Origin: Phallus indusiatus
Taxonomy: Eukaryota > Basidiomycota > Agaricomycetes > Phallales > Phallaceae
Assembly: GCA_027605045.1 (NCBI GenBank)
Contig: JAQFWX010000007.1
Coordinates: 1,798,001 to 1,862,000 of the forward strand
Reading direction: 5' to 3'
DNA: 64,000 bases
The translations under genes were made by a program, and so were the position numbers. Every line of letters starts with the position of its first letter. The first letter of the stretch is position 1. Below the pieces are notes generated by a model. It was not told the DNA's origin and did not search any database. It saw nothing but the letters and a program-made list of their open reading frames with translations. Shown here piece after piece: positions 4,925 through 59,753 of this stretch.

Positions 4925-5638
4925 CAGCGCTTACGGTTACGTAAGAGAATTGCTAGTACACGCAACTGGTACACCGTTTTTTATTCTTGCTATAACTCAC
5001 TCCAATCTAAACGCAGATCCTTGAAATTTGCTACACAGATTTAGGCATATGTTATCTAGGGAACGCCAAGTTTTTTACAACGAAATTCATCGGCTTTCAG
5101 TTTTCCATTTTACACATCCCCGGTTTACACTATTCGCATTCTAAAGGCCCGGAACATGAAGATATCACACTGGTAGGAAGTTAGAACTATTACACGACAT
5201 ATGATTGAGGGAACACATGCCTTTATGTGCTCAAAATCCCTTGAGTTCTGGATGAAATGCCCTTCACTTTACTATAAACCTGGATTCCTGATGTAGTTCA
5301 GTTGGTTTTTTAGTTTAAAACAAAGATTCAGATCAAAAAAATGGATTGATTCCCTTGAGAATGAGCTAAACAATGTTTTAATCATCCTACAATAGTGGAA
5401 TTCCTTGAACTGGATCTTCTTGGATGCAAATAGTTTGACACGAGCAGGTGGGGAGTGAAATTTTGTAAATGAGTGAATTATATTGAAACTATCAGTGGGT
5501 TCCCTAGAATATACATGTGGAAATGCACGTGCAAATTTTCAGGAAGCTAGGATTCAGATTGAGTGAGATATAGCGAGAATAAAAAAAGACACTGTTGTCG
5601 CTTGTACCAGCTATTCTCTTACGTAACCGTAAGCGCTG
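4925..5638. mobile_element. TA-flanked MITE, 714 bp
   Basis: The ends are inverted repeats: CAGCGCTTACGGTTACG begins at 4925, and its reverse complement ends at 5638. About 26 bp match perfectly and weaker similarity runs further in. The element is flanked by TA on both sides (4923-4924 and 5639-5640), the duplication expected of Tc1/mariner/pogo-type transposons. No reading frame of note lies inside, so it is non-autonomous. Confidence 0.8.
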
Positions 5639-11170: not shown

Positions 11171-14100
11171 TAGACCGGATATCTGGCAGGAGCATCAGTT
11201 GATAGCGGCCGGCGCTTGTCTTAAGAGAAAAGACCTCTTCAAGTCGGGTCGACGTTTTCATTACAAAATCAGCTTTAACAAGAAAGTATGCATGTTCTAA
11301 GTTTGAAAATACGAAAGATCACGCTTTGCCGTGCCAATTCTGAAATTACTGGAAATTTTGGACGCTTGTGCTGACTTTAAAAATGTCTGGTTCACTTTCT
11401 CACACGGCTTGAAGACCAGTGCCCGACATCAACCTTATACATGTACGTAGACAGCAAAGGCTAAGGTATGTCAAACGTTGACTCGTTATGTAACGGGAGA
11501 GGGAAACTATTATTCACCCATTGCTCAGATGTCATCCCTGCCTTTCAATTTCAAGTTTGCTCAACGCAAAAAGAAGAAATCTGTCGATAATTCCTGCGCG
11601 CTTGACCGCCTTCCCTACGAGATATTCAGACGAATAATACTCTATGCGGACGATAGAGTGTCATCGCTTTTATTGCTTTCAATGGCAAAGTCAGAGATAA
11701 TTCCACCTCCAATAACAGCGTCGCATGTTTGTCATTCGTGGAGGGCGGCGCTTCTATCCGACCCAACGCTATGGACATGCCTTAGGATTCCGCAAATGGA
11801 ACCGCAACAGATAAAAGAGATGCTTCGTCGATCTTCCCATGTGCCTTTGAACGTGTTCATGAATACGGGTCGCTATGGTCTTCGTGCCTCTTTTCGTCAG
11901 TGGAAAGTGTACCAAAACGAAGTTCTTCCCTCGGTTTTCAAAGAAATGAGCCGATTCAAGGGTCTTCAAATAGACTTCTCGCTGCAGAGTCATCACTCAT
12001 TCAGAGCGATGGCGAATCGAGTCTTGGAGTTGCTAGATCAGCCAGCACCCATTTTGCAGGAGTTTTATCTAAGAATCGGAACAGACCATCGCGAAGAATT
12101 GTACGAAAGCCAAAAAAACCTTTTGCAAAACATGCTCTCCGATGCTCCTAATCTGAAACATATACATCGACAAGTTTTGGACGATTTCCGACACCTTTCA
12201 TTTCCGTCTCATTTTCGAAATTTATATAGTCTTCATCTCGAGCTGGTGAAGGGCGTGGTGATTCGCTGTGATACTTTTTTTGATGTACTCGATTCATCCC
12301 CCTTTCTTCGTACTCTTCAAATTGCAGCGTTTTGTATAGAACCAACACTTCTTCCTCCGGCGTCTGCCGCTCGACGAGCCTCGCTGTTACATTTACAAAG
12401 CTTCAGCATCATTCGACTCAGTGTCCATGTCGCGAATCTCGTTTTCGGCTATCTCGTTTTTCCTGAAGAGATCAATTATAGCATCACTTGCACCCATTAT
12501 CACCGAAAACTATCTCATACTCCACTGTTATTGCGATTTATCACTCAACGACGACCTACAGATTTAAAGCTATCGTTTCCCCCGAGCGGAGGGTTTGTAT
12601 TCCTTACCCTCAAACAACATTATCATTCGGGACCATATACAAATACGCTCTCACTAGAGGAGGATCTAGATTCACAACCCGAGGACGGCCTCCATGATCT
12701 ATTGCAAATGTTTACATTATCCGATATAACAAGCTTAACTTTGTGCTTCGCAGATGAATCAACAAATACGCCGGAAAACCTGGTAGACACATTTCCCTTG
12801 CTGATCAATCTAAAATTCCTCCAAATTCGGTACCACCCCCGGAAAGCTTGTGGTCGCACCATAATAACAGCGTCCATTCTCACATTAATCTCATTTCCGC
12901 CTTATGCATGCTGGGTGTCAAGTACCGATATCCGGGAACGGTAATAGATACTGTAATGTATTTTAGTCGCTGAATATAACACCAATAACTGTCACCGTTG
13001 GTTGACGACAGTCAGGACTTGGCCTCAATCTATAAGAGATTGTGCCACGACAGTCTTCTTCAGGATTTGTCCTGACGTTCGTCACGAGCGTCAAGTTCGT
13101 CAAGGACGTTACGGATATGTGCGTTCCGAGCTTCGAGAGCCGCGAGCTGTATCTCGTATTGAATGATATCAAGCTCAACGATAATGAAGAAAGCTTTTGT
13201 AAGGACACGATCGTTCAGCGGTTTAGACTTAAGGATCAGACGTTATAACCCAGTAGTCCAATCTATAATAGCGCAAGGAGCTACACTTGCGCGCACAGTA
13301 GTACTTATATACATGAGTGAGCTATCTCTACCCAATAGCGCTCAGGTGCTTTATCTACCAGTAGGAAAGGAGGTAGTCGACGACGAATGAGAAACAGGAG
13401 TGGAAAGGAAGATGGTGACAGTATGGAGCGAACGGAGAAACGGAAGATGTTCGGGAGAATACGGGAGGAAGAATACGGACCGGCATACCGGGTACCGTAC
13501 GATGGATGTGGTAGCGCGTAGACTAACACATACGTCTATACTATACGCACAATATACTAGATTAGCCCTTATGATCCTAGCACGTACCCTGACAGCTTTG
13601 AGATGTAACTCTCGGCAATGACGGATGGCTTCCGTTGCTGCAAGTCTCGAGGAACGATCTCGACGTTCAATGATGAAGAGAGTAAGAGAAGGAGAGTTTA
13701 TAGAGATATCGAACTACGTTCGATATTAAGTCTGAAGAACTATCTACGTGTATGCTAGGGTTTATATACACGTCAGATAAATAATTCTAGCTCAGTTCGA
13801 AATAGATTCCGAACTTGAGAAATACAAACAAGTCGTGAGATTCGTAAGTAACATCAATATATGCAGGGTATGATGTCTCATGTGATGAACATGACACTGG
13901 AGGCATGAGGAAATTTGCTTGATGTGCAAACCATTAAGCAAATCCCAAGCTGAGGCCCAGTTTGCACAAAGTTTTCTTGACACATCCAACTTTGTGTAAA
14001 CATGAGATTTGTTACAAGTTTCCTTAGCCAAGCTAACAATGGACAAATTTCATGCAAATTGAATGGTAAACTTTGAGGGAAATTCTGACTTTGTACAAAG

Positions 14101-14469
14101 TTTACATGTATAAGCAAATTCTGGGGAAATTAAATGTCTGCTTAATATTTGCAGGTCCATTTAAACTTTGAGGGAATAGGGTGCAAATTTTATTGCAAAC
14201 TGTTGAATTGTTCAAAATTTGCACAATAGAAAAACTTGATACAAATGAAGGTTTGCAGATCCTGCAAACTAATAGGGGATGACAAAGGAGAAATGAAATC
14301 TGCAATGAGTTTGCAGGGCTCAATCAAACACTATGTAAATTGAGAGTTTGTTCCTAAGTTTGATGATGCATGCAAATGACTGGTAGATATAGGGTTTGGA
14401 CAAGGTTTGGGTATAGGGGTAAACTATGAACATATACAGGGTTTGCCAGGGTGGGATAAGAGGTGAAAG

Positions 14470-16238
14470 CACACAGCAAAACAATGTAGGAGTGTAACAG
14501 TGTAACAGCATAGGAGTGTAAGAGCATAGGAACGTAACAGCGTAAGAGTGGAACAGTGTAGGAGTGTAACAGCATAGGAGCGCAACAGTGTAAGAGCATA
14601 GGAGTGTATGTAGGGGCGTAGGAGTGTATGTAGGGGCGTAGGAGTGTAGGAGTGTAGGAGTGTAACAGTGTAAGAGCATAGGAGCTTAGGAGCGTAACAG
14701 TGTAGGAGCGTAACAATGTAGAAGCGTAACAACATAGGAGTGTAACAACGTAGGAGTGTAACAACAGAGGAGCGTAACAATGTAACAGTGAAGGAGCATA
14801 GGAGCGTAACAGCATAGGAGTGTATCAGCATAGGAGCATAACAGTGTAAGAGCGTAGGAGCATAACAGTGTAGGAGCGTCACAGCGTAACAGTGTAGGAG
14901 CGTAACGTAACAGCGTAGGAGCATAGGAGTGTAACAGTGTAGAAGCGTAACAATGTACGAGTGTAGGAGCGTAACAGTGTAGGAGCATAGCAGTGTAGGA
15001 GTGTAAGAGTGTAGGAGTGTAACAGTGTAGGAGTGTAACAGTGTAGGAGCGTAATGACGTAACAGTGTAGGAGTGTAACAGTGTAGGAGTGTAACAGCGC
15101 AGGAGTGTAGGAGTGTAACAGTGTAAAAGCGTAGGGGCATCACAGTGTAACAGTGTAGGAGCATAGGAGCCGAACAGTGTAACAGTGTAGGAGCGTAACA
15201 GCATAACAGCATAGGAGCATAACAGTGTAGGAGCATAACAGCATAACAGCGTAAGAGTGTAACAGTGTAAGAGTGTAACAGTGTAAGAGTGTAGGAGCGT
15301 AACAGCGTAGGACTAAGGAGTGTTGCAGTGTAAGAGTGTAGGAGTGTAACAGCGTAGCAGTGTAGGAGCGTAACAGTGAAACAGCATAGGAGTGCAACAG
15401 TATAACAGCGTAGGAGCATAGGAGCATAACAGTGTAAGTGTAGGAGTGTAACAGCGTAACACTGTAAAAGCATAGGAGCGTAACAGCATAACAGCGTAGG
15501 AGTGTAAGAGTGTAAGAGTGAAACAATGTGGGAGCATAACACTGTAAGAGTGTAAGAGTGTAAGAGTGTAACAGCGTAACAGCATAGGAGCATAACAGTG
15601 TAAAAGTGTAAGAGCATAACAGTGTAAGAGCATAGGAGCGTAACAGCATAACAGTGTAGGAGTGTAACAATGTAACACCGTAGGAGCGTAACAGCGTAAC
15701 AGCGTAGGAGTGTAACAGTGTAAGAGCATAGGAGTGTAACAGTGTAATTGTCAGGGTACGCTACTGCGTCCCCTCATTTTTCCTCATTTATTATCATCGG
15801 TATATATTCCCCTCTACTTTATTTATATTTCCCATATATTATCTCCACCCTCCGTTTGCTCCCTCTGTCTCTATTCCACTTTCTCTACTTGCGCGCGTCG
15901 CGCGCTCGTACCCGGCGTGACGCCGTAGGCGTCACGTCGCTTATGTTCGGTTTGGGCGTCTGGCACTTAGCTGTGTCAGGGCCGCACGCCGCGCTATCGT
16001 TTTTCATGTATATAGTCGCTGTCCCTAGAGTGAGGGTCCCTAAGCTTGTTCTCTTAGGATCCCCTCCCTCTAGGTGAGTAGTTATTTCTCCCCAATATAT
16101 TTATCTTAGGATCCCCTCCCTCTAGTGTGAGCTGAGTAGCCCTAACAGTAATAGTATAGGAGCACAATAGTGTAAGAGCATAAGAGCATAACAGTGTAGG
16201 AGCGTAACAGTGCAGGAGCGTAACAGCATCACAGTGTA
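14470..16238 (+). repeat. Octamer array, left arm (G-Y-R-T-A-R-S-A)n
   Basis: Tandem degenerate 8-bp units such as GTGTAACA, GTGTAGGA, GCGTAACA, GCATAGGA and GTGTAAGA. About 1.35 kb of array, some 170 units, remains after discounting the inserted LTR at 15749-16147. A 20-bp higher-order unit (GTGTATGTAGGGGCGTAGGA) occurs twice near 14604-14643. Confidence 0.9.
15749..16147. mobile_element. Solo LTR (399 bp), copy 1
   Basis: It starts TGTCAGGGTACGCTAC and ends AGTAGCCCTAACA, with short inverted ends and a 5-bp duplication GTAAT (15744-15748 and 16148-16152). The sequence is clearly homologous to 59364-59753, which has a different duplication. Both contain a doubled CTTAGGATCCCCTCCCTCTA near the 3' end. 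It was inserted into the octamer array. Confidence 0.88.
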
Positions 16239-18095
16239 CTACGCTCTTACACTGTTTTGCTCCTACGCTCTTACACTGTTATGCTCCTACCCTTTTACAT
16301 CGTTATGCTGTTATGCTCCTATGCTTTTACGTTCCTACACTGTTATGCTCTTACACTGTTACACACCTACACTGGTACACTGTTACACACCTACGCTGTT
16401 ACACTGTTACACACCTACGCTGTTACACTCCTACACTGTTTCGCTGTTACACTGTTACACTGTTTTACTCCTATGCTTACACTGTTATGCTCCTATGCTC
16501 CTATGCTGTTATACTGTTACACTCCTATGCTGTTTCACTGTTACCCTCCTACACTGTTACGCTGTTACGCTCCTACACTGTTGCGCTCCTATGCTGTTAT
16601 GCTGTTATGCTCCTACACTGTTACACTGTTCCGCTCCTATGCTCCTACACTGTTACGCTGTGATGCTCCTGCGCTTTTACACTGTTACACTCCTACGCTC
16701 CTACGGTGCTACATTGTTACCCTCCTACACTGTTATGCTGTTATGCTGTTATGCTCTTCCACTGTTACGCTCCTACGCTGTTACACTCCTATGCTGTTAC
16801 ACTCCTACGCTGTTACACTCCTACTGTAACGGTTCCGCTATGAGCAGCGGACTACTATTAATCATAGTACATATTCGTATATACATACAATTGTATGCAG
16901 ACGATCGTCGTCTGCACAAGTACCTAGTATTATGTAATGTACATAGGCGCCATCACACCAGTAAATACCGCGTAACGGTAAAGGCGCCGGCAGCCTTTCT
17001 TACCTGCACTTGCAAATATACAGCTTTATACTGTTTGTTGTGAGTCCGTAAGAACCGGGCTAATCGTAAACTGTAACGAAACGTTACACCTACGCTCCTT
17101 CACTGTTACATTGTTACGCTCCTCCGTTGTTACACTCCTACACTGTTACACTCCTACGCTCCTAGACTCCTACGCTCCTAGACTCCTACACTCCTTGACT
17201 CCTACGCTCTTACACTGTTGCGCTCCTATGCTGTTGCGCTCCTACACTGTTCCACTCTTACGCTGTTACGTTCCTACGCTGTTACGCTCCTACGCTCTTA
17301 CACTGTTATGCTCCTATGCTGATACGCTCCTATGCTGTTACGCTCCTATGCTCCTACACTGTTACACTGTGATGCCCCTACGCTTTTACACTGTTACACT
17401 CCTACACTCCTGCGCTGTTACACTCCTACACTGTTACACTCCTACACTGTTACGTCATTACGCTCCTACACTGTTACACTCCTACACTGTTACACTCCTA
17501 CACTGTTACACTCCTACACTCTTACACTCCTACACTCTTACACTCCTACACTGCTATGCTCCTACACTGTTACGCTCCTACACTCGTACATTGTTACGCT
17601 TCTACACTGTTACACTCCTATGCTCCTACGCTGTTACGTTACGCTCCTACACTGTTACGCTGTGACGCTCCTACGCTGTTATGCTCCTACGCTCTTACAC
17701 TGTTATGCTCCTATGCTGATACACTCCTATGCTGTTACGCTCCTATGCTCCTTCACTGTTACATTGTTACGCTCCTCTGTTGTTACACTCCTACGTTGTT
17801 ACACTCCTACGTTGTTACGCTTCTACATTGTTACGCTCCTACACTGTTACGCTCCTAAGCTCCTATGCTCTTACACTGTTACACTCCTACACTCCTACAC
17901 TCCTACGCCCCTACATACACTCCTACGCCCCTACATACACTCCTACGCCCCTACATACACTCCTATGCTCTTACACTGTTGCGCTCCTATGCTGTTACAC
18001 TCCTACACTGTTCCACTCTTACGCTGTTACGTTCCTATGCTCTTACACTCCTACGCTGTTACACTGTTACACTCCTACATTGTTTCGCTGTGTGC
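16239..18095 (-). repeat. Octamer array, right arm
   Basis: The reverse-complement counterpart of the left array (units such as TGTTACAC and TCCTACGC). It is about 1.6 kb after discounting the LTR at 16825-17088. The 20-bp higher-order unit occurs three times near 17890-17960, against two in the left arm, so the two arms have diverged in copy number. Confidence 0.9.
16825..17088. mobile_element. Solo LTR (264 bp) of a second family
   Basis: It begins TGTAACGGTTCC and ends AACGTTACA, so the ends are TG...CA with short inverted repeats. It is flanked by CCTAC on both sides (16820-16824 and 17089-17093). CCTAC is common in this array, so that match alone is weak evidence. The interior is unlike the array and holds a palindrome, GCAGACGATCGTCGTCTGC. 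No reading frame is seen. Confidence 0.75.
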
Positions 18096-19276
18096 TTTCA
18101 CCTCTTATCCCACCCTGGCAAACCCTGTATATGTTCATAGTTTACCCCTATACCCAAACCTTGTCCAAACCCTATATCTACCAGTCATTTGCATGCATCA
18201 TCAAACTTAGGAACAAACTCTCAATTTACATAGTGTTTGATTGAGCCCTGCAAACTCATTGCAGATTTCATTTCTCCTTTGTCATCCCCTATTAGTTTGC
18301 AGGATCTGCAAACCTTCATTTGTATCAAGTTTTTCTATTGTGCAAATTTTGAACAATTCAACAGTTTGCAATAAAATTTGCACCCTATTCCCTCAAAGTT
18401 TAAATGGACCTGCAAATATTAAGCAGACATTTAATTTCCCCAGAATTTGCTTATACATGTAAACTTTGTACAAAGTCAGAATTTCCCTCAAAGTTTACCA
18501 TTCAATTTGCATGAAATTTGTCCATTGTTAGCTTGGCTAAGGAAACTTGTAACAAATCTCATGTTTACACAAAGTTGGATGTGTCAAGAAAACTTTGTGC
18601 AAACTGGGCCTCAGCTTGGGATTTGCTTAATGGTTTGCACATCAAGCAAATTTCCTCATGCCTCCAGTGTGAGGTATGCAGGGATGAGAGCTGTGCATAC
18701 ATGGACCTACGTTCGTCATCTATGACCTCATAACCGGAACGTGCGTGGAATATTCTAGAAAGGGCTTTCCGCGGATGTTCCAGGAGTTAAGAGAGACGGG
18801 TACGTCTCTATTCGAGTTGCGAGGTTGATTGAGATGACTGAACGCGAAGGTCATATCGTGAGTGACGTAAGCGTGATAAGATTACGGAGATAAACGGTAA
18901 ATGATCGGATATGGATTACGTAACGTTACCGGAAGTGATGTCATGAATTGGATCATGACACTGGGTTCGGGATGGTGGCCCCAGTAGCGAAGAAATTCAC
19001 GACGCCCTTCTTAATCCTCAATACCCAAGTTGTCCTCTTCTTCACACGTTATCTATAGTCGTGGATCGGGACTGTGCGAAGCTAGACAAGACATATGCTA
19101 TCGTGCTAAAAGCATGTTCACGGTTTCGACGGAGAGCGGGATACCCCCTTGAAGCTATAACCATCCGTTGTTCAGAATCGAGTTTGACCGAAGCGGCCGC
19201 AGCAACGTTATTGCCTCGTCGAGGTTTCCCCGTCACCATAACTTTGAAAGAAAATCCGGAATCATATCGGTGCTAA

Positions 19277-19588
19277 TTTTTTTTTCCCATGATACGGTCC
19301 CCCTAACATTATGAATCATTCTTGCGATATCTTCTGATATTAGCGGTGCGTTGAAAAACAGCTACCTATGCGTACTGTTGCGTACGCAAACAGGCTACGC
19401 AGAGATTTGTCAGCACTCGGTATATGCGCCGGTCTGTCAATATTTTGCAAATTCCAATTATTTTGTACCTTTCACCCGTTCGCAATTAAACTATTAGCCT
19501 TTTCCATTGTTTTTAGATTACATTTTAGCACCATTCCAATTTCCTGGAAACTCCCAAATCATGTATATAAAAATCTTTCTTTAGCTTA
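19277..19588. other. Short spacer, nothing recognised
   Basis: This holds the 3' flank of the split F-box gene up to the next transposon. No gene or repeat is recognised. Confidence 0.4.
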
Positions 19589-20789
19589 CACTGTGGAAAA
19601 AACTCCCACTCAAGTAAGTGGTACTCAGTGGGTATGACCACTGAGTAACATTGTTCAGTGGTCGGTTAGTGGGTTATACCCACTGATAATCAGTGGTAAC
19701 CAGTGGCTAAGTCAGTGGCCAGTGGAAAGTCAGTGGTTCGTTACCACTGACTTTAATGCCCAGTGGTAATTCAGCGGTAATGGTACCACTGAATTTCAGT
19801 GGTGGGTTAGTGGTGAGTCAGTGGGGGATAATATTCAGTGGTTCTATACCACCGGAATACTCAAACTAGCTTAAGCTACCAGCCTGTAATTAATTAATTA
19901 TTTTTGTAGTGAAAAAAGTGTTTTTTTGCTAAGTTACTTGGTATATAAGAGCACGTGACGTGACGCGTGGCGCGTAACTCGCTGTGTTTGAATCGGAGTT
20001 GAAAAGTGATTGTATGCGCGTATAACGTTTTTAAGCCTCACTTCACTTTTTTCTCGCCCCATCCCACCCTCCCATCATCCCACCGCCATCCACGGTCCAT
20101 GCCACGGTCCATGCACCGTTGACGCCGCCATCCACGCCGCCATCCCATTCCGCCATCCCATTCCGCCGTCACCCACGCCCCTTCGCATCGTCCCTTCGCA
20201 TCGTCCGCGGCCGGTGGCGGTCTGTCATGACGCGTGACAATTCAGAGTTACACAACGCTAGCCCAATATTCAGAGTGAGTCATATATAATTCATGTCGCA
20301 CGTTACTTACTATGAATAGTGCCCACAGACGAAGAAGACTTCGCTACTCGCGTGGCGCGCTTTACGGGACGGTTGGGTGAGAGCGAGAGGAGATCGGGAC
20401 CTGGGCGCAGTTGGGAGACGAGTAACATTCTACTAGTAGTGTAGTATTCATTAGTATAAGCCTTTTGTGTATATAATTACATGGATTTTATTACAAATAA
20501 ACATGACTTACATAATAAATAAATAACGAAAAACGAACGAAAAATAAATGCACGGGCCGTGAAACTGCTGTATGACTTATCGAGTACTTATCGAGTACTT
20601 ATCACTTAACTTTCAGTGGAAAATGCCACTGAGCGCCATTGAACCTCAGTGGTTTTTACCACGGAAACGGCGGAAGTTCCGCTGATTTTCAGTGGTCAGA
20701 CCACTGATAAACCACTGGTATTCAGTAGGTGTATCCACTGAGTCACCACTGAGTATCAGTGGCATTCAGTGGCGATATTTTCCACAGTG
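19589..20789. mobile_element. CACTG-ended element with CAGTGG subterminal repeats, 1201 bp
   Basis: The ends are CACTGTGGAAAA and its exact reverse complement, flanked by TTA (19586-19588 and 20790-20792). The outer 270 bp on the left and 180 bp on the right are packed with CAGTGG/CCACTG in both orientations. The middle holds TATA-like DNA and a CCATCCCATTCCG-type short repeat but no transposase. A 3-bp duplication with CACTG ends fits CACTA/EnSpm; a TTA duplication would also fit PIF/Harbinger, so the superfamily is uncertain. Confidence 0.75.
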
Positions 20790-33060: not shown

Positions 33061-34237
33061 AATGAATTGTTTGGATTTTGACGAATTCGGGTAATGTGGA
33101 TATCTGAAGTTGAGAAAAAAATAATGTGAGAGCAAACGCGAACACGCGATTCCTAAACCAGAGACGTTTTATATTATAGGATGGGGACATTGTCCATGAG
33201 TTTATAAATTTGGAAGATCCATGGGCATCGGGACTCCCAATATCAATGTCCAACGACGTCATCGGACACGATCAGCTTCCGAAAATATGATTGAGCAAAC
33301 ACCTATGGACAATTACGGAAATGAACCGAAAGACTTAGCGGGGGCTCGAGAGACAAAACCGAGTGGTTTGAGACAGTAATGAAGATGGAGAAATCAGAAA
33401 TTTTCCAAATCAATCCCACAATGCAAAGCCCATGAACATTCGGATACGACTCATTAGCTATGGTGCACGATACACGAACCTGGCTATCAATGAACCGCAT
33501 GGCTACAATGATAGAGTGGACTGCGTACCTCTTGAGTGAGATATACTTGCGCGGTCCTAATTCCAATTACATCATATTCCAACTCGTTCTTCCAGGCCCA
33601 ATGGTACACCTAATGTGGCGAGACCTCACTTCGATATGTTTAACGGGCCTGACTCATTTTTCGTTCTGTCGAGCAATATAGTAGGTGTACGTAGGTGTCC
33701 ATGGATTTAAAAAGGGAATAACCGACTTGGTCCAGGGTGAAAAAGGAGGGCACAAAGGTTTCAAAATTGTCCTAACCCTTGTGGTCCGCACCACACCAAG
33801 GCTCAACGTTGCAACAACGAGCTAAGCGCGTAACACGTAACGCGTGCAAAAATACGCGGCGTAAACTCTCCGCCAACATTTGGCGCCCGAGAAAGCAACG
33901 GTCTTGTCAAAACGACGACGATATAGAATGGGAATTTCAAAACCGTCAATGACATCTCAATGACGACATATTCATCAATATGTTTGTACATTTTATGTAA
34001 GCTACATAATAGATGGGTCCGGATTGAATGCTGCATGCACCAGAACCTAGACGACATTGGGCAAGACAACTCGGTAGGCTTTCATTGATGTGGTCAAAAT
34101 TTTCGTTTTGTAAATCTGTATTATGAAGTGTGTTTCGTAGAAAACTAGTTACCAGTGAGCAATTTGTCTTGTGAAACGGACTGAACAGAACGATGCGAGT
34201 CGAGCTAGTCAAGCCTGACTTCGTCCACGAAAGCAGA
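33061..34237. other. Intergenic, no gene recognised
   Basis: Apart from F-box remnants next to 33061, I see no coherent gene. Several short frames lie on both strands without domains. Confidence 0.4.
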
Positions 34238-36029
34238 TTAATTGGTAATCACAACTCCCTTTGCGCGCAAAGCGGGCAGAACATCATGGTAATAATGACC
34301 GTAAGTGTAATCAATGTCAGAAGTCATGCCAGCCAACCGCAAAACCTTGGCTCCCGTCTTCAACGTCACATCAGCAAGAACCTTGTATGATAATCTGCAA
34401 GATTCCAAGATGAGCTTTTTGAGCCGTACATCTGGTGGTATCGACTTCAACGCATCCGTTACACAGTTGGTAAACTCGAGAATATGAAGGTTCGGAAACA
34501 CGCGGTGAAAATTAACTTTAACGTTCTCCAAACTCAGAAGCACCCATGCGGCATCCCTTAATTTCAGGTGCCGCACACGAGGCATAAAGTGGCCAAGTTC
34601 GAGAATGAAGGAATAATCAAACTCCTCGAAGCCTTGACACTCAATGGCTAGTGGACATATTTCGAACACTTCTTCGGGGCAGTCGCTGGGAGACATATAT
34701 CCATAAATCTTTAATCGTCCTGGAGAGTCAGAGTAGCTTATGTCCAAATATCGAAATTTCGAAAAATTGGATAATGTTTCTGATGGAATGGCCTCAAGAA
34801 CTTGGAGAGACGAGATCGATGGGGTCCCCTGATCATCATCATCTTCTTCCTCTTCCTCTATATCCGAGCTAGTGTCAGTCTTAGGTGTGTCGCTAGACTG
34901 GTAAATCCTGGTTCGGAAGAATAGTTTGAACTGAGACAATGATCGTAAGGTCCGTATGTACCTCGAAAGGTGCTGAATAAAACTGTAACTTGAGGGCCCC
35001 CACGCCTGTAGTTCCATCTGGGTGAGGTCGGGAAAATCAAGTTCGTTGGCCTTCGATTGTGGGTTTATTGATGGTCTCGTGTCATAAATTAGCTTCGTCC
35101 CATATTCATCAAAGTCTCCAAGATTGATTTCCAGTACTTTCAAAGAAGGACAATTGGATAAAAAGACTAGGAGATGGGATAGAGGAGGTGGGTTCATTAA
35201 TCTAGTCAACTTGAGAGATGTTAATTTGTTGTGCGAAAGCTGGAGCCATGGTAGATTAAGTCCCGTAATTTCGACGTCTCGAAGAAAAGAGTCGTCTAAT
35301 GCGTGCGTCATGGATGGTAATATTGGGTTAACATTCTGGCCCTCGTTGAAATTGGCTCTGTAATAATAGTCTCTGTATAAGCAGATGTTCAGGTGTCGTA
35401 GTTGAAATGGCAATGCAGAGTTAAAGAGATCACGATGAAGACCAGGAAAGCGATTGTATGAAGTTTTGATAGTCAGAGAATGTGTGCGGGATAAAATCGA
35501 ATGTGCGTTAGACATGAGATACGACTTTGACGGAGCATTTTCGAAAATGGGATCGTCCATGCCGTTTTCCCACAGTAGGATAAGTGGAGCATTCTGCGAT
35601 CGTTTCTCAAAAAGCTCAAAAAATTCGGGAGGGCGGCCTATATCCAAGAATGCCCATAAAGCCGGTCGTCCCAAAGCGAATTCCCTCCAATGTCTGCATA
35701 CGCGCGAAACATTCATGATCTCCCACACGGGATAGCGCGAGGTATAAACGACCAGAGTGAAGATGTTGTAAAGTATATCAGGAATCAGTTTGTTTATAGT
35801 AAGCTTGGAGTTACGGATATTCCTAAGCCGAAGATCGATGAAAGAAAGCACTAATTGTGCATTGTCTATGGATTTTAATGTCAACTGTTCGGAGTTCGCG
35901 CTGATAATTTCAGAATTTTTGTTAGTTAGGAGTATGTAATAATTGAAAGAAACAGCATGATTACTTTATTTCATCATCAATCTCAAAAAGATAAGGTAGC
36001 AGGTTGTCACCGTATTCTTCTACCTCCAT
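34238..36029 (-). CDS. F-box protein with LRR-like body (family A, copy 3)
   Basis: Two exons, 35965-36029 and 34238-35900, give 575 residues. The 64-nt intron (35901-35964) is at the same place and phase 2 as in the other family A genes, with CCTAAC as branch site. The start ATG at 36029 gives MEVEEYGDNLLPYLFEIDDE, an acidic helix like that of its relatives. The F-box is at about residues 58-105 (INKLIPDILYNIF ... VSRVCRHWREFALGRPALW). The body is leucine-rich, with an acidic insert of Glu and Asp after SSDI, and no ELVEC-type ending; it ends VVITN. More diverged from copies 1 and 2 than they are from each other. Confidence 0.85.
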
Positions 36030-39782: not shown

Positions 39783-41491
39783 TCAGTAATATTCGCCAGA
39801 CCGAACCACGACTTCAACTCCCATTTCGCGAAGAGCAGCCACAGCGTCTACAACATGTTCGTCTGCATCACTGTTCCCACATTCGATTATTTCCAAAACT
39901 TTGACTTCCATTCTCGAAACCATGTCGAAAAGAACATCGCCTGGTATGCGACTCCACGACAAGATGAGTTCATCTAATTGTAAAATCCCGGGCAATGAAC
40001 CTGGTCCGATGTCACATTGAATCAATTCCAGAGTTTTAAGACAAGGAAACGCCCTGCGAATCCCAAGGTTCGGCCATAAAGTGAGAACTTCCAATCCTCT
40101 ACATCTAAGTATCAGGTAACGGATTCGGGGCATGGCATTTACCAATTCTCGGATTGGGGAATAATCAGGTAGCTTGAAATCTTTGAATGCGATACCTAGT
40201 GGACTTGGTGATCTAGGCATATCGCCGGTTAAAACGCTCCCAAAGATCTGCAAGTGTTCTCCAGATTCATCAAAAAATGTTACGTCTAAAAAATCACAGT
40301 GTGAGAAATTGGACAATGATCCCCGTGGAATCGCCGCGAGAGTTTGGAGCGGTACGCCGTCTACGTGGTGTGGACCTAATTCTCCAAAATACGTGGGATC
40401 GCATCTCAGGTCCAACTGAGACAATGCTCCTGGAATGATATGGCTCGAAAACTGACAAAGAAACTTATAGCTTGAAGATCCTAACGCTTCCAATCTGAGT
40501 ATACTAAGATTCAATGCTACCTCAATTACCACGTCGACCGAGAGGCTTGCCGATGCAGGAAACATTGTTTGTATTCCACCACCGATATAATCTTGAAAAC
40601 CGAGGTCCAGGATTTTCAACGACGGGCAATTAGACAGAAAAACGAGAAGTTGAGGTATTGCAGGCGGGTTTATTGGGGTGCGGTAAGTGAGACTTGTTAA
40701 GCTTCTATGCGGAAGATTGAGCCAACGAGAATCCACTCCTACAAGTCTCAATTCTTGAAGACAGGAGTTGTCTATGAGATGTGATATTGGTGGCGGTACC
40801 GGTCTATCATTGTCGTTACCAAGTTGGGGGTCACGGGATAAGTCGATGTCCAAGTATCGTAATTGAATTGGTATTGACCCAACATTGTTTTGAATGTCAC
40901 GGTGAAGTCGAGCGAAGCGGACATACGAAGTTTTTACAGTTAAAGAATATAAGCGAGGTAAAATGGATTTTGCGCAAGACGCGAAATGTTGCGAGGAGTA
41001 ACCGAAGCCGTAGACGGTTTCGAGGGTTCTCCTGGGATTGGTCCATGATAGGCTGAGGGGAACATTCTGTGAGCGCTCGATCACTAGATGGAGAGACGAC
41101 GAATGCTTGTTCAGATCTATGAATCTCCATAACGTTGGCCATCCCAATGCGGATTTTCTCCAATGGCGGCACACGCGCGAGATCTTCAAGATAGTTGTTG
41201 GAGGAGAAGGTGATTCGTAAACCGCCAATTCAAATATGGCATAAAGTATATCTGGAAAAAGTTTATTGATCCCGAGTTTAGAGTTATAGAAATGGTCCAA
41301 TTGAAGGACGACGGAGTGAAGTTTTTGTCGCGTTTGGCGTATGTATTTGGGTGTCAACTTTTCAGAGTTTGTTCTAGTTATTACATGGTTTGATTAGTGC
41401 AATATGTACGCGTATGCGAAATAAACGCCTACTCCATTTCATTTTCGAGTTTGAGAAGGTAAGGGATTGGTTCGTCGTCTTGTTGCTCCAT
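39783..41491 (-). CDS. F-box protein with LRR-like body (family A, copy 4)
   Basis: Two exons, 41433-41491 and 39783-41373, give 549 residues. The 59-nt intron (41374-41432) is in the shared place and phase 2, with GTAGGC...AACTAG ends. The start ATG at 41491 gives MEQQDDEPIPYLLKLENEME, again an acidic helix ahead of the intron. The F-box is at about residues 50-100 (INKLFPDILYAIF ... ISRVCRHWRKSALGWPTLW). The body is leucine-rich and ends EVLEIIECGNSDADE then VVVRSGEYY, an ending like copies 1 and 2. Probable SCF adaptor, substrate unknown. Confidence 0.85.
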
Positions 41492-59363: not shown

Positions 59364-59753
59364 TGTCAGGGTACGCTACCGCCGTCTCTCATTTTCCTTG
59401 ATTATTACCATCGGCATCACTTCATTTCTATTCCATTTATTATTTCCGTATTTTACTTTTACTTTCCGCTTCCTTGTTTTGTCTCTATTTCACTTTCTCT
59501 ACTCGCGCGCGTCGCGCGCTCGTACCCGGCGTGATGCCCGTGACATCACGTCGCTTAGGTTCGGCTTGGGCGTCTGGCACTTAGCTGTGCCAGGGCCGCA
59601 CGCCGCGTCGTCGTTTATGTATATAGTAGCTGTACCTAGAGTGAGGGTCCCTAAGCTTGTTCTCTTAGGATCCCCTCCCTCTAGGTGAGTAGTTAGTATT
59701 TTCCCAATATATATCACTTAGGATCCCCTCCCTCTAGCTGAGTAGCCCTAACA
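59364..59753. mobile_element. Solo LTR (390 bp), copy 2
   Basis: It starts TGTCAGGGTACGCTAC and ends AGTAGCCCTAACA, with a 5-bp duplication CGAAC (59359-59363 and 59754-59758). It is homologous end to end to the copy at 15749-16147. A different target duplication shows an independent insertion. Confidence 0.9.

Follow-up and report, generated by a model that had tools for sequence, protein, structure and literature searches.

A near-perfect CACTG-ended palindrome built from eight-letter repeats in Phallus indusiatus

Most fold-back elements seem to belong to the Mutator superfamily (PMC4079207), to which Galileo, a P-type element, is an exception (PMC3573991). Three described systems, cited here from the consulted parts of the papers, are close in form to the element reported below. 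Tetris of Drosophila virilis, which has a MITE, DAIBAM, is like our element apparently non-autonomous, with long arms that contain internal tandem repeats; Tetris resembles it further in having few structurally complete copies (three), in sharing its final end parts with a MITE and in that no autonomous partner was found (PMC4079207). The repeat unit of Tetris is ∼220 bp long instead of 8 bp, its superfamily is undecided, and the consulted part of the report does not mention CpG decay (PMC4079207). Galileo (P superfamily) has long, internally repetitive inverted arms of variable length, and its authors invoke ectopic recombination and conversion; it differs in its 7-bp target-site duplications (TSDs) and P-type transposase, where we find a 3-bp TSD and CACTG ends (PMC3573991). 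The Tm1 Mutator/Foldback elements of root-knot nematodes have composite arms made of 13- to 15-bp tandem repeats as well as MITE-like relatives, and are unlike ours in their 9-bp TSDs and Mutator (Phantom-like) transposase (PMC3169594).

No CACTA fold-back was present among the titles and abstract openings searched, which is no proof of absence in print. Cryptococcus neoformans is a basidiomycete. Its active CACTA element, CNIRT6, has 24-bp terminal inverted repeats that start, like those of our element, with CACTG; it is ∼7.5 kb long and encodes a transposase, and neither a palindrome nor octamers are mentioned in the consulted part of the report (PMC12810828). Fungal EnSpm families likewise have CAC..GTG ends and 3-bp TSDs, but encode a transposase together with a TET/JBP dioxygenase, and the consulted text mentions no fold-back form (PMC12730594).

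Here we describe an element in a window of 64,000 nt (the whole stretch of DNA analysed, C173:1798001-1862000) of the P. indusiatus genome (67.2 Mb, 206 contigs). It is a real, well-bounded fold-back, whose form is close to Tetris, Galileo and Tm1 but which has CACTA-type ends and an 8-bp repeat unit. We read it, with a probability of about 0.68, as a non-autonomous fold-back of a CACTG-ended EnSpm/CACTA (CMC)-type transposon, with copying between the arms and CpG decay.

Boundaries and insertion of the element

The element occupies positions 13895..18669 of the window (4775 bp) and is a near-perfect palindrome built from 8-letter repeats. It is flanked by TGA on the left (13892..13894) and on the right (18670..18672). 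The ends are CACTGGAG..CTCCAGTG on both sides, which agrees with the CACT..AGTG of EnSpm/CACTA elements, as does the 3-bp length of the duplication; the inverted ends are perfect over 27 bp, with CACTGGAGGCATGAGGAAATTTGCTTG read at each end. They are the outermost part of two CpG-free subterminal arms, the left one (13895..14474, plus strand) starting with CACTGGAGGCATGAGGAAATTTGCTTG and rich in TTTGC/GCAAA, the right one at 18090..18669 (minus strand). Comparison of the outermost bases with their inverted counterpart gives 584 identities in 585 positions, against at most 174 in 20 shuffles. The left arm has 6 TTTGC/GCAAA motifs in its first 250 bp and 8 in the next 250 bp; the background is a mean of 0.59 and a maximum of 4 per 250 bp (window outside 13600-19000). 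Within the subterminal 586 bp TTTGC occurs at 7 positions and GCAAA at 9, that is, as short direct and inverted subterminal repeats, a feature of EnSpm/CACTA elements (PMC8978399). A preliminary description of this DNA had claimed perfect CACTGG... ends, a TGA target duplication, about 580 bp of identical subterminal DNA and richness in TTTGCA, and all four are borne out.

At the level of open reading frames (ORFs), no gene is recognisable within the 4.8-kb element: the ORFs of at least 80 aa are octamer frames and short ones in the first of two solo LTRs (see below) and across the ends. The window contains no matches to Rfam families.

The comparison with empty sites proposed in the preliminary description was made with a 600-bp query, in which both flanks were joined with a single TGA. 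This query matches at least 41 places at 95-99% (40 of 194 candidates scored). Forty of the 41 matches run from base 1 to at least base 588 and the remaining one from 7 to 588; all of them cross the junction, with matched lengths of 584-594 bases, and none has a large insert there. One empty site, examined letter by letter, has 7 mismatches and an ungapped junction. The element was inserted as a single unit, giving a 3-bp duplication, and, since its flanks match 41 places without a large insert, it entered a dispersed repeat. The empty sites are paralogous members of that repeat, not alleles.

Octamer arrays and other copies

Inward of the subterminal arms the element consists of tandem arrays with a unit of about GYRTARSA, mostly of the form G-[TG/CG/CA]-TA-[GG/AC/AG]-A. 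The left array has an outer part at 14480..15748 and an inner part at 16148..16239 (both plus strand), and the right array an inner part at 16240..16824 and an outer part at 17089..18085 (both minus strand). The arrays total 1357 bp on the left and 1576 bp on the right (LTRs and one TSD copy excluded), and the arms 1942 and 2160 bp (LTRs excluded); a unique middle is absent. Long arms and tandem repeats within them are both as in described fold-back elements. The preliminary description had put the head-to-head arrays at more than 1.3 kb per arm, which holds, and had seen no spacer between them: the arrays do abut at the palindrome centre (∼16239..16240), but two insertions that it had missed interrupt them further out.

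The first insertion (15749..16147, minus strand, 399 bp, TGTTAGGG..CCCTGACA on that strand) is flanked twice by GTAAT, and the second (16825..17088, 264 bp, TGTAACG..CGTTACA) twice by CCTAC. Both are bounded by TG..CA, and we read them as solo LTRs. LTR 1 is a dispersed repeat, for which the loci compared contain many relatives, including a 96.75% copy within the second palindrome described below, while insertion 2 has relatives at one other of these loci (L055). The LTRs entered the arrays later than the arrays formed; two LTR elements would have been inserted and then reduced to solo LTRs.

A BLASTN search of the genome with the 586-bp arm, which the preliminary description had suggested for finding other copies and an autonomous partner, revealed the former but no transposase partner. 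Besides both arms of the window element (copy A), it matches both arms of a second full palindrome (copy B, C163:55790-64689), a single arm on C77 (copy C, 33523-35338, ending at 35338) and one end fragment of 152 bp (C173:1537056-1537207); related MITEs complete the set. Copy B is 8.9 kb long and filled with nested elements, among them a hAT remnant (PF05699, E 5.2e-13) and LTR sequence. Over 1816 bp copy C is 99.67% identical to the left arm of A, yet the DNA around it is different, which strongly suggests that the family moved. Copy B adjoins a 398-bp MITE at its left end and is followed by TGA on the right; no TSD is thus visible, which argues to some degree against a clean insertion of B.

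The 398-bp MITE belongs to a family with related ends (CACTGGAGACATAGG / CACTGGAGACATAGGAAAG), which share 76-79% identity with those of the window element over 167-183 bp. In its main orientation the family has at least 25 matches covering bases 1-398 (query included). Full-length matches on the opposite strand, at 70-73%, indicate that each MITE is an imperfect inverted repeat. Identical 3-bp flanks were found in 20 of 22 distinct MITEs checked. The count covers loci L014-L024 and L051-L067 and MITEs with lengths of 250-420 bp, of which there were 23, 22 of them distinct; a longer MITE on C1 (746 bp), outside this count, lacks matching flanks. The window element was considered as a member of this family and rejected: its ends are related, but it is 4775 bp long and carries octamers. 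The preliminary description had taken copies lacking TGA as evidence against the element, which is too strict; the related MITEs vary in the letters of the duplication, as expected.

CpG sites and the likeness between the arms

Five arms contain 615 octamer units matching GNNTANNA, 599 of which have C/T then G/A at positions 2-3. These positions read TG in 314 units, CG in 150, CA in 131 and TA in only 4, where independence predicts 71.7 (Fisher p 1.6e-46, to be taken as indicative because the units are related by descent). In the un-homogenised inner parts alone the counts are TG 156, CG 76, CA 69 and TA 3, with 37.7 TA expected. CG, TG and CA with TA nearly absent is the pattern predicted by methyl-CpG decay. 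Five of the six point differences in the tract shared by both arms of A and by C are CG to TG/CA (the sixth lies near a 32-bp gap), and in array columns 586-804 all seven base differences between A and B, counted manually by unit, are at the CpG site, with length differences in addition. A BLAST-based change spectrum was dropped because it chained unrelated octamers; its row for the two arms of A held 41 CpG-type, 97 other and 11 TG-CA changes, a mixture of homologous and chance alignment.

The 580-bp arm has no CpG at all, while the observed/expected ratio for the window is 1.0. Among 497 stretches of 398 bp from the loci used, 13 fall under a ratio of 0.3 and 5 under 0.05, and the latter five all come from arms of the three large copies, one of them extending into the adjoining MITE. 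Of the 22 MITEs, 20 are CpG-free and two contain a single CpG. The arm is enriched in TG (1.46 against 1.06 in the window) and in CA (1.63 against 1.07). LTR 1 and LTR 2, at 1.09 and 1.52, are not depleted; thus CpG decay is not general to repeats here: either the LTRs are recent arrivals or this element family is specifically targeted. The genome has three partial C5-methylase domain matches above the cut-off (best E 4.5e-8), and CpG-type C-to-T signatures have been described in three basidiomycetes, with a strong signal in Microbotryum and a weak one in each of two rusts (PMC4352252). Judging from these base patterns, CpG methylation probably lies behind the octamer decay, and each octamer would decay through C-to-T change at its single CpG site.

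A somewhat unlikely alternative is that the octamers are functional sites: selection would retain them as giant CACTA subterminal repeats to which a TnpA-like protein binds, and CpG methylation would silence them. The 9-mer ACACTCTTA, which we take to belong to the TnpA motif of maize En/Spm, is present 11 times in the element and nowhere else in the window, which speaks for this reading, but this count is a consequence of the array itself. TNPA-like proteins do bind to the subterminal repeats of CACTA elements, and methylation may affect the GC-rich part of these repeats (PMC2613891); the tandem repeats in the arms of Galileo also contain secondary transposase sites (PMC3573991). Against such a role, about three quarters of the units have no CG at the site, and one 22-base octamer pattern is confined to the three large copies (all 25 genomic occurrences fall within A, B or C). 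Octamers are absent from the two MITEs examined in full, yet the MITE family is repeated and has TSDs.

The two arms of A are 99-100% alike over a left tract of 1276 bp (13895..15170, plus strand), equally close to C77, and its counterpart of 1328 bp on the right (17342..18669, minus strand), with one 20-bp and one 32-bp length difference. The left tract stops abruptly inside the octamer array. Beyond it the likeness is 70-82% per 100 columns, except in the last, nearly empty 60-column window; this is close to the 76-77% between each A array and the left array of B. The symmetry of the whole arrays implied by the preliminary description therefore holds for the outer parts and not further in. 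In B, the arms are alike for 814 bp with a single 1-bp indel and then diverge immediately. Over the 580 subterminal bp, 8 sites distinguish A from B, and at every one of them the two arms of each element agree; further variation is just a 1-bp indel in one arm of B. The five-arm alignment has 37 ungapped variable columns, of which 34 separate the elements with arms agreeing, none separates left from right and 3 show other patterns. Since this alignment is ambiguous past column ∼804, we also give the count for the first 804, safely aligned columns: 19 of 21 separate the elements with arms agreeing. The arms are thus concordant within each element, and the tracts end sharply.

This near-identity of the outer tracts could also mean that each palindrome was born once, and recently, by inverted duplication of one arm (hairpin-type). 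We regard such an origin as unlikely. It predicts likeness up to the centre, whereas near-identity stops at 1276/1328 bp in A and at 814 bp in B. In addition, the subterminal DNA and the array start are common to both arms of A and B, which suggests that the palindrome predates the split between these elements. Suggestive, too, is the inner right arm of A, where left-arm blocks are matched, in changed order, by runs of windows that lie on a common diagonal: five windows at offset 492 and three at offset 761 (89-96%), and four at offset 381 (88-94%). The background for A windows against the inner arrays of B has a mean of 82% and a maximum of 92% (60 draws). Individual inner windows of B attain 92-94% when compared with A or with the other arm of B, so only the runs of windows speak for older inner homology in A. 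A null for array order was built from 20 unit shuffles with fixed 8-mers. All three pairs within A exceeded their shuffles, a result we set aside because the fixed cuts break off-register units, which makes the null unfair for A. For B, where it is fair, one of eight pairs with an inner array of B lay above the maximum of 20 shuffles, so ordered homology to A, or between the inner arrays of B themselves, is slight.

Most simply, these patterns can be read as an old palindrome in which one arm has had its outer part re-copied from the other, with the copy ending out of register in the array. The arms would be kept alike by one copying the other, from the end inward, by repair, and copying would stop at varying points of the array, where out-of-register annealing is easy; the varying tract ends are those of the two full palindromes.

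Superfamily and meaning

The element would be mobilised by an EnSpm-type transposase encoded elsewhere, acting on the 27-bp ends. The same enzyme would probably also bind the TTTGC-rich, CpG-free 580-bp subterminal arms, whose outer part appears related to the 398-bp MITE family. Since the transposase partner was not found, CACTA membership is inferred from the ends, subterminal repeats and TSD length. The CACTA-ended fold-back proposed in the preliminary description is accordingly upheld by its ends, TSDs, empty target and second palindrome, and weakened by the missing partner, by copy B without a TSD and by copy C with a single arm.

Profile searches of the genome gave 66 Plavaka-domain matches, a number compatible with a basidiomycete source, and 10 Transposase_21 matches. 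A scan for CACT ends with ∼1.5 kb of flank found no convincing element with these ends and a transposase among 15 of the 66 Plavaka and all 10 Transposase_21 loci. Searches of the genome with end patterns gave 53, 69 and 59 ends; those that were placed are in MITEs, fragments or the three large copies. A looser pattern matched 207 places against 69 for a reversed control, and no partner was found among the places listed (to contig C130); it could be hidden among the remaining ones. Three candidates were set aside. A weak Transposase_21 place on C34 has a CACTGG-like match on either side, and the sequence at one of these looked coding by eye. On C1, a 1787-bp element with these ends is a MITE that contains a further element, whose ends resemble those of the copy-B hAT. 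A Plavaka gene on C149 lies near a family MITE, but that MITE has its own AGA/AGA duplication, so the gene is not the partner.

The excess of Plavaka-domain matches and the failure to find an EnSpm partner would fit ends that come from another CMC-type or undescribed superfamily, such as the Plavaka lineage. We doubt this: CACTG..CAGTG with a 3-bp TSD is unlike published PlavakaA (TGT..ACA, 2-bp TSDs) and PlavakaB (CATCA..TGATG, 2- or 3-bp TSDs) (PMC12730594), and Plavaka membership was rejected on the ends. Membership among the Mutator-type fold-backs (Tm1) and in P/Galileo was likewise rejected, as the TSD here is 3 bp long and theirs are 9 bp (PMC3169594) and 7 bp (PMC3573991).

That copy B is itself autonomous, its central protein being the transposase, is highly improbable despite the length of 8.9 kb and the transposase remnant encoded between its arms: the remnant is hAT (PF05699), lies between ends of its own type (AGTGATGCCGAAGTTCGG) and within the array, together with LTRs, and the four frames of B searched gave no other family. 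hAT enzymes use ends of another kind and make 8-bp TSDs.

Within the preferred reading, a non-autonomous CACTA-type fold-back with copying between its arms, we tentatively propose that the palindrome maintains itself. A damaged end, e.g. at excision, would be rebuilt from the other arm; the array would serve as a tolerant zone for re-annealing in any 8-bp register, and its CpG sites as a clock, possibly also as a methylation mark. If true, the element would be a CACTA-type fold-back that templates its own ends, and self-maintenance would keep the arms matched while the array length drifts.

A CACTG-ended fold-back would widen the range of superfamilies that take the fold-back form, and would agree with the view that this form has arisen repeatedly. 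The comparison of two elements yields clear traces of copying between arms, the tracts ending sharply. Some 600 near-identical CpG sites in the arrays, many shared by descent, record decay in a CpG-normal setting, so that conversion and methylation-linked mutation may be dated on the same DNA.

Sequence and folding within copy A

The 9-mer ACACTCTTA, which we take to be part of the maize TnpA motif, occurs 11 times in copy A, the palindromic CACTG-ended fold-back element at window positions 13895-18669, versus no occurrences in the remainder of the window. When one subterminal arm (13895-14480) was considered alone as a single strand, its folding (DNA parameters) was better than that of 100 out of 100 shuffled sequences (z = −3.56).

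Surroundings of copy A in the window

Copy A is surrounded by a dispersed repeat (13595-13894 and 18673-18960) of which at least 41 further copies were found. Another copy (82.75%) of solo LTR 1, the 399-bp insertion in the left octamer array of copy A (15749-16147), is located at 59364-59753. Low CpG o/e (0.24) was also observed in 5175-5572 and 19503-19900. Two long frames, 34241-35884 and 39786-41357, have F-box-like matches, that of the second being under the Pfam cut-off.

Related elements elsewhere in the genome

The 398-bp MITE family has ends related to those of the fold-back element. One member (G000:C163:55392-55790) directly abuts copy B, the second palindrome (C163:55790-64689), with 0 bases separating them; the two outer flanks of this pair differ and do not match, and the left flank of the MITE, actcacctag, is identical to that of another MITE on C151 (L062). 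Another member, on C1 (L048:6309-8001 plus L049:1-94; G000:C1:2724608-2726394), has the TSD ATA; nested inside it is an element whose ends are of the AGTGATGCCGAAGTT type, resembling those of the hAT in copy B.

A 152-bp end fragment on C173 (L012:5057-5208; G000:C173:1537056-1537207) has one diagnostic base as in copy A and another as in copy B; this fragment perhaps represents a third lineage.
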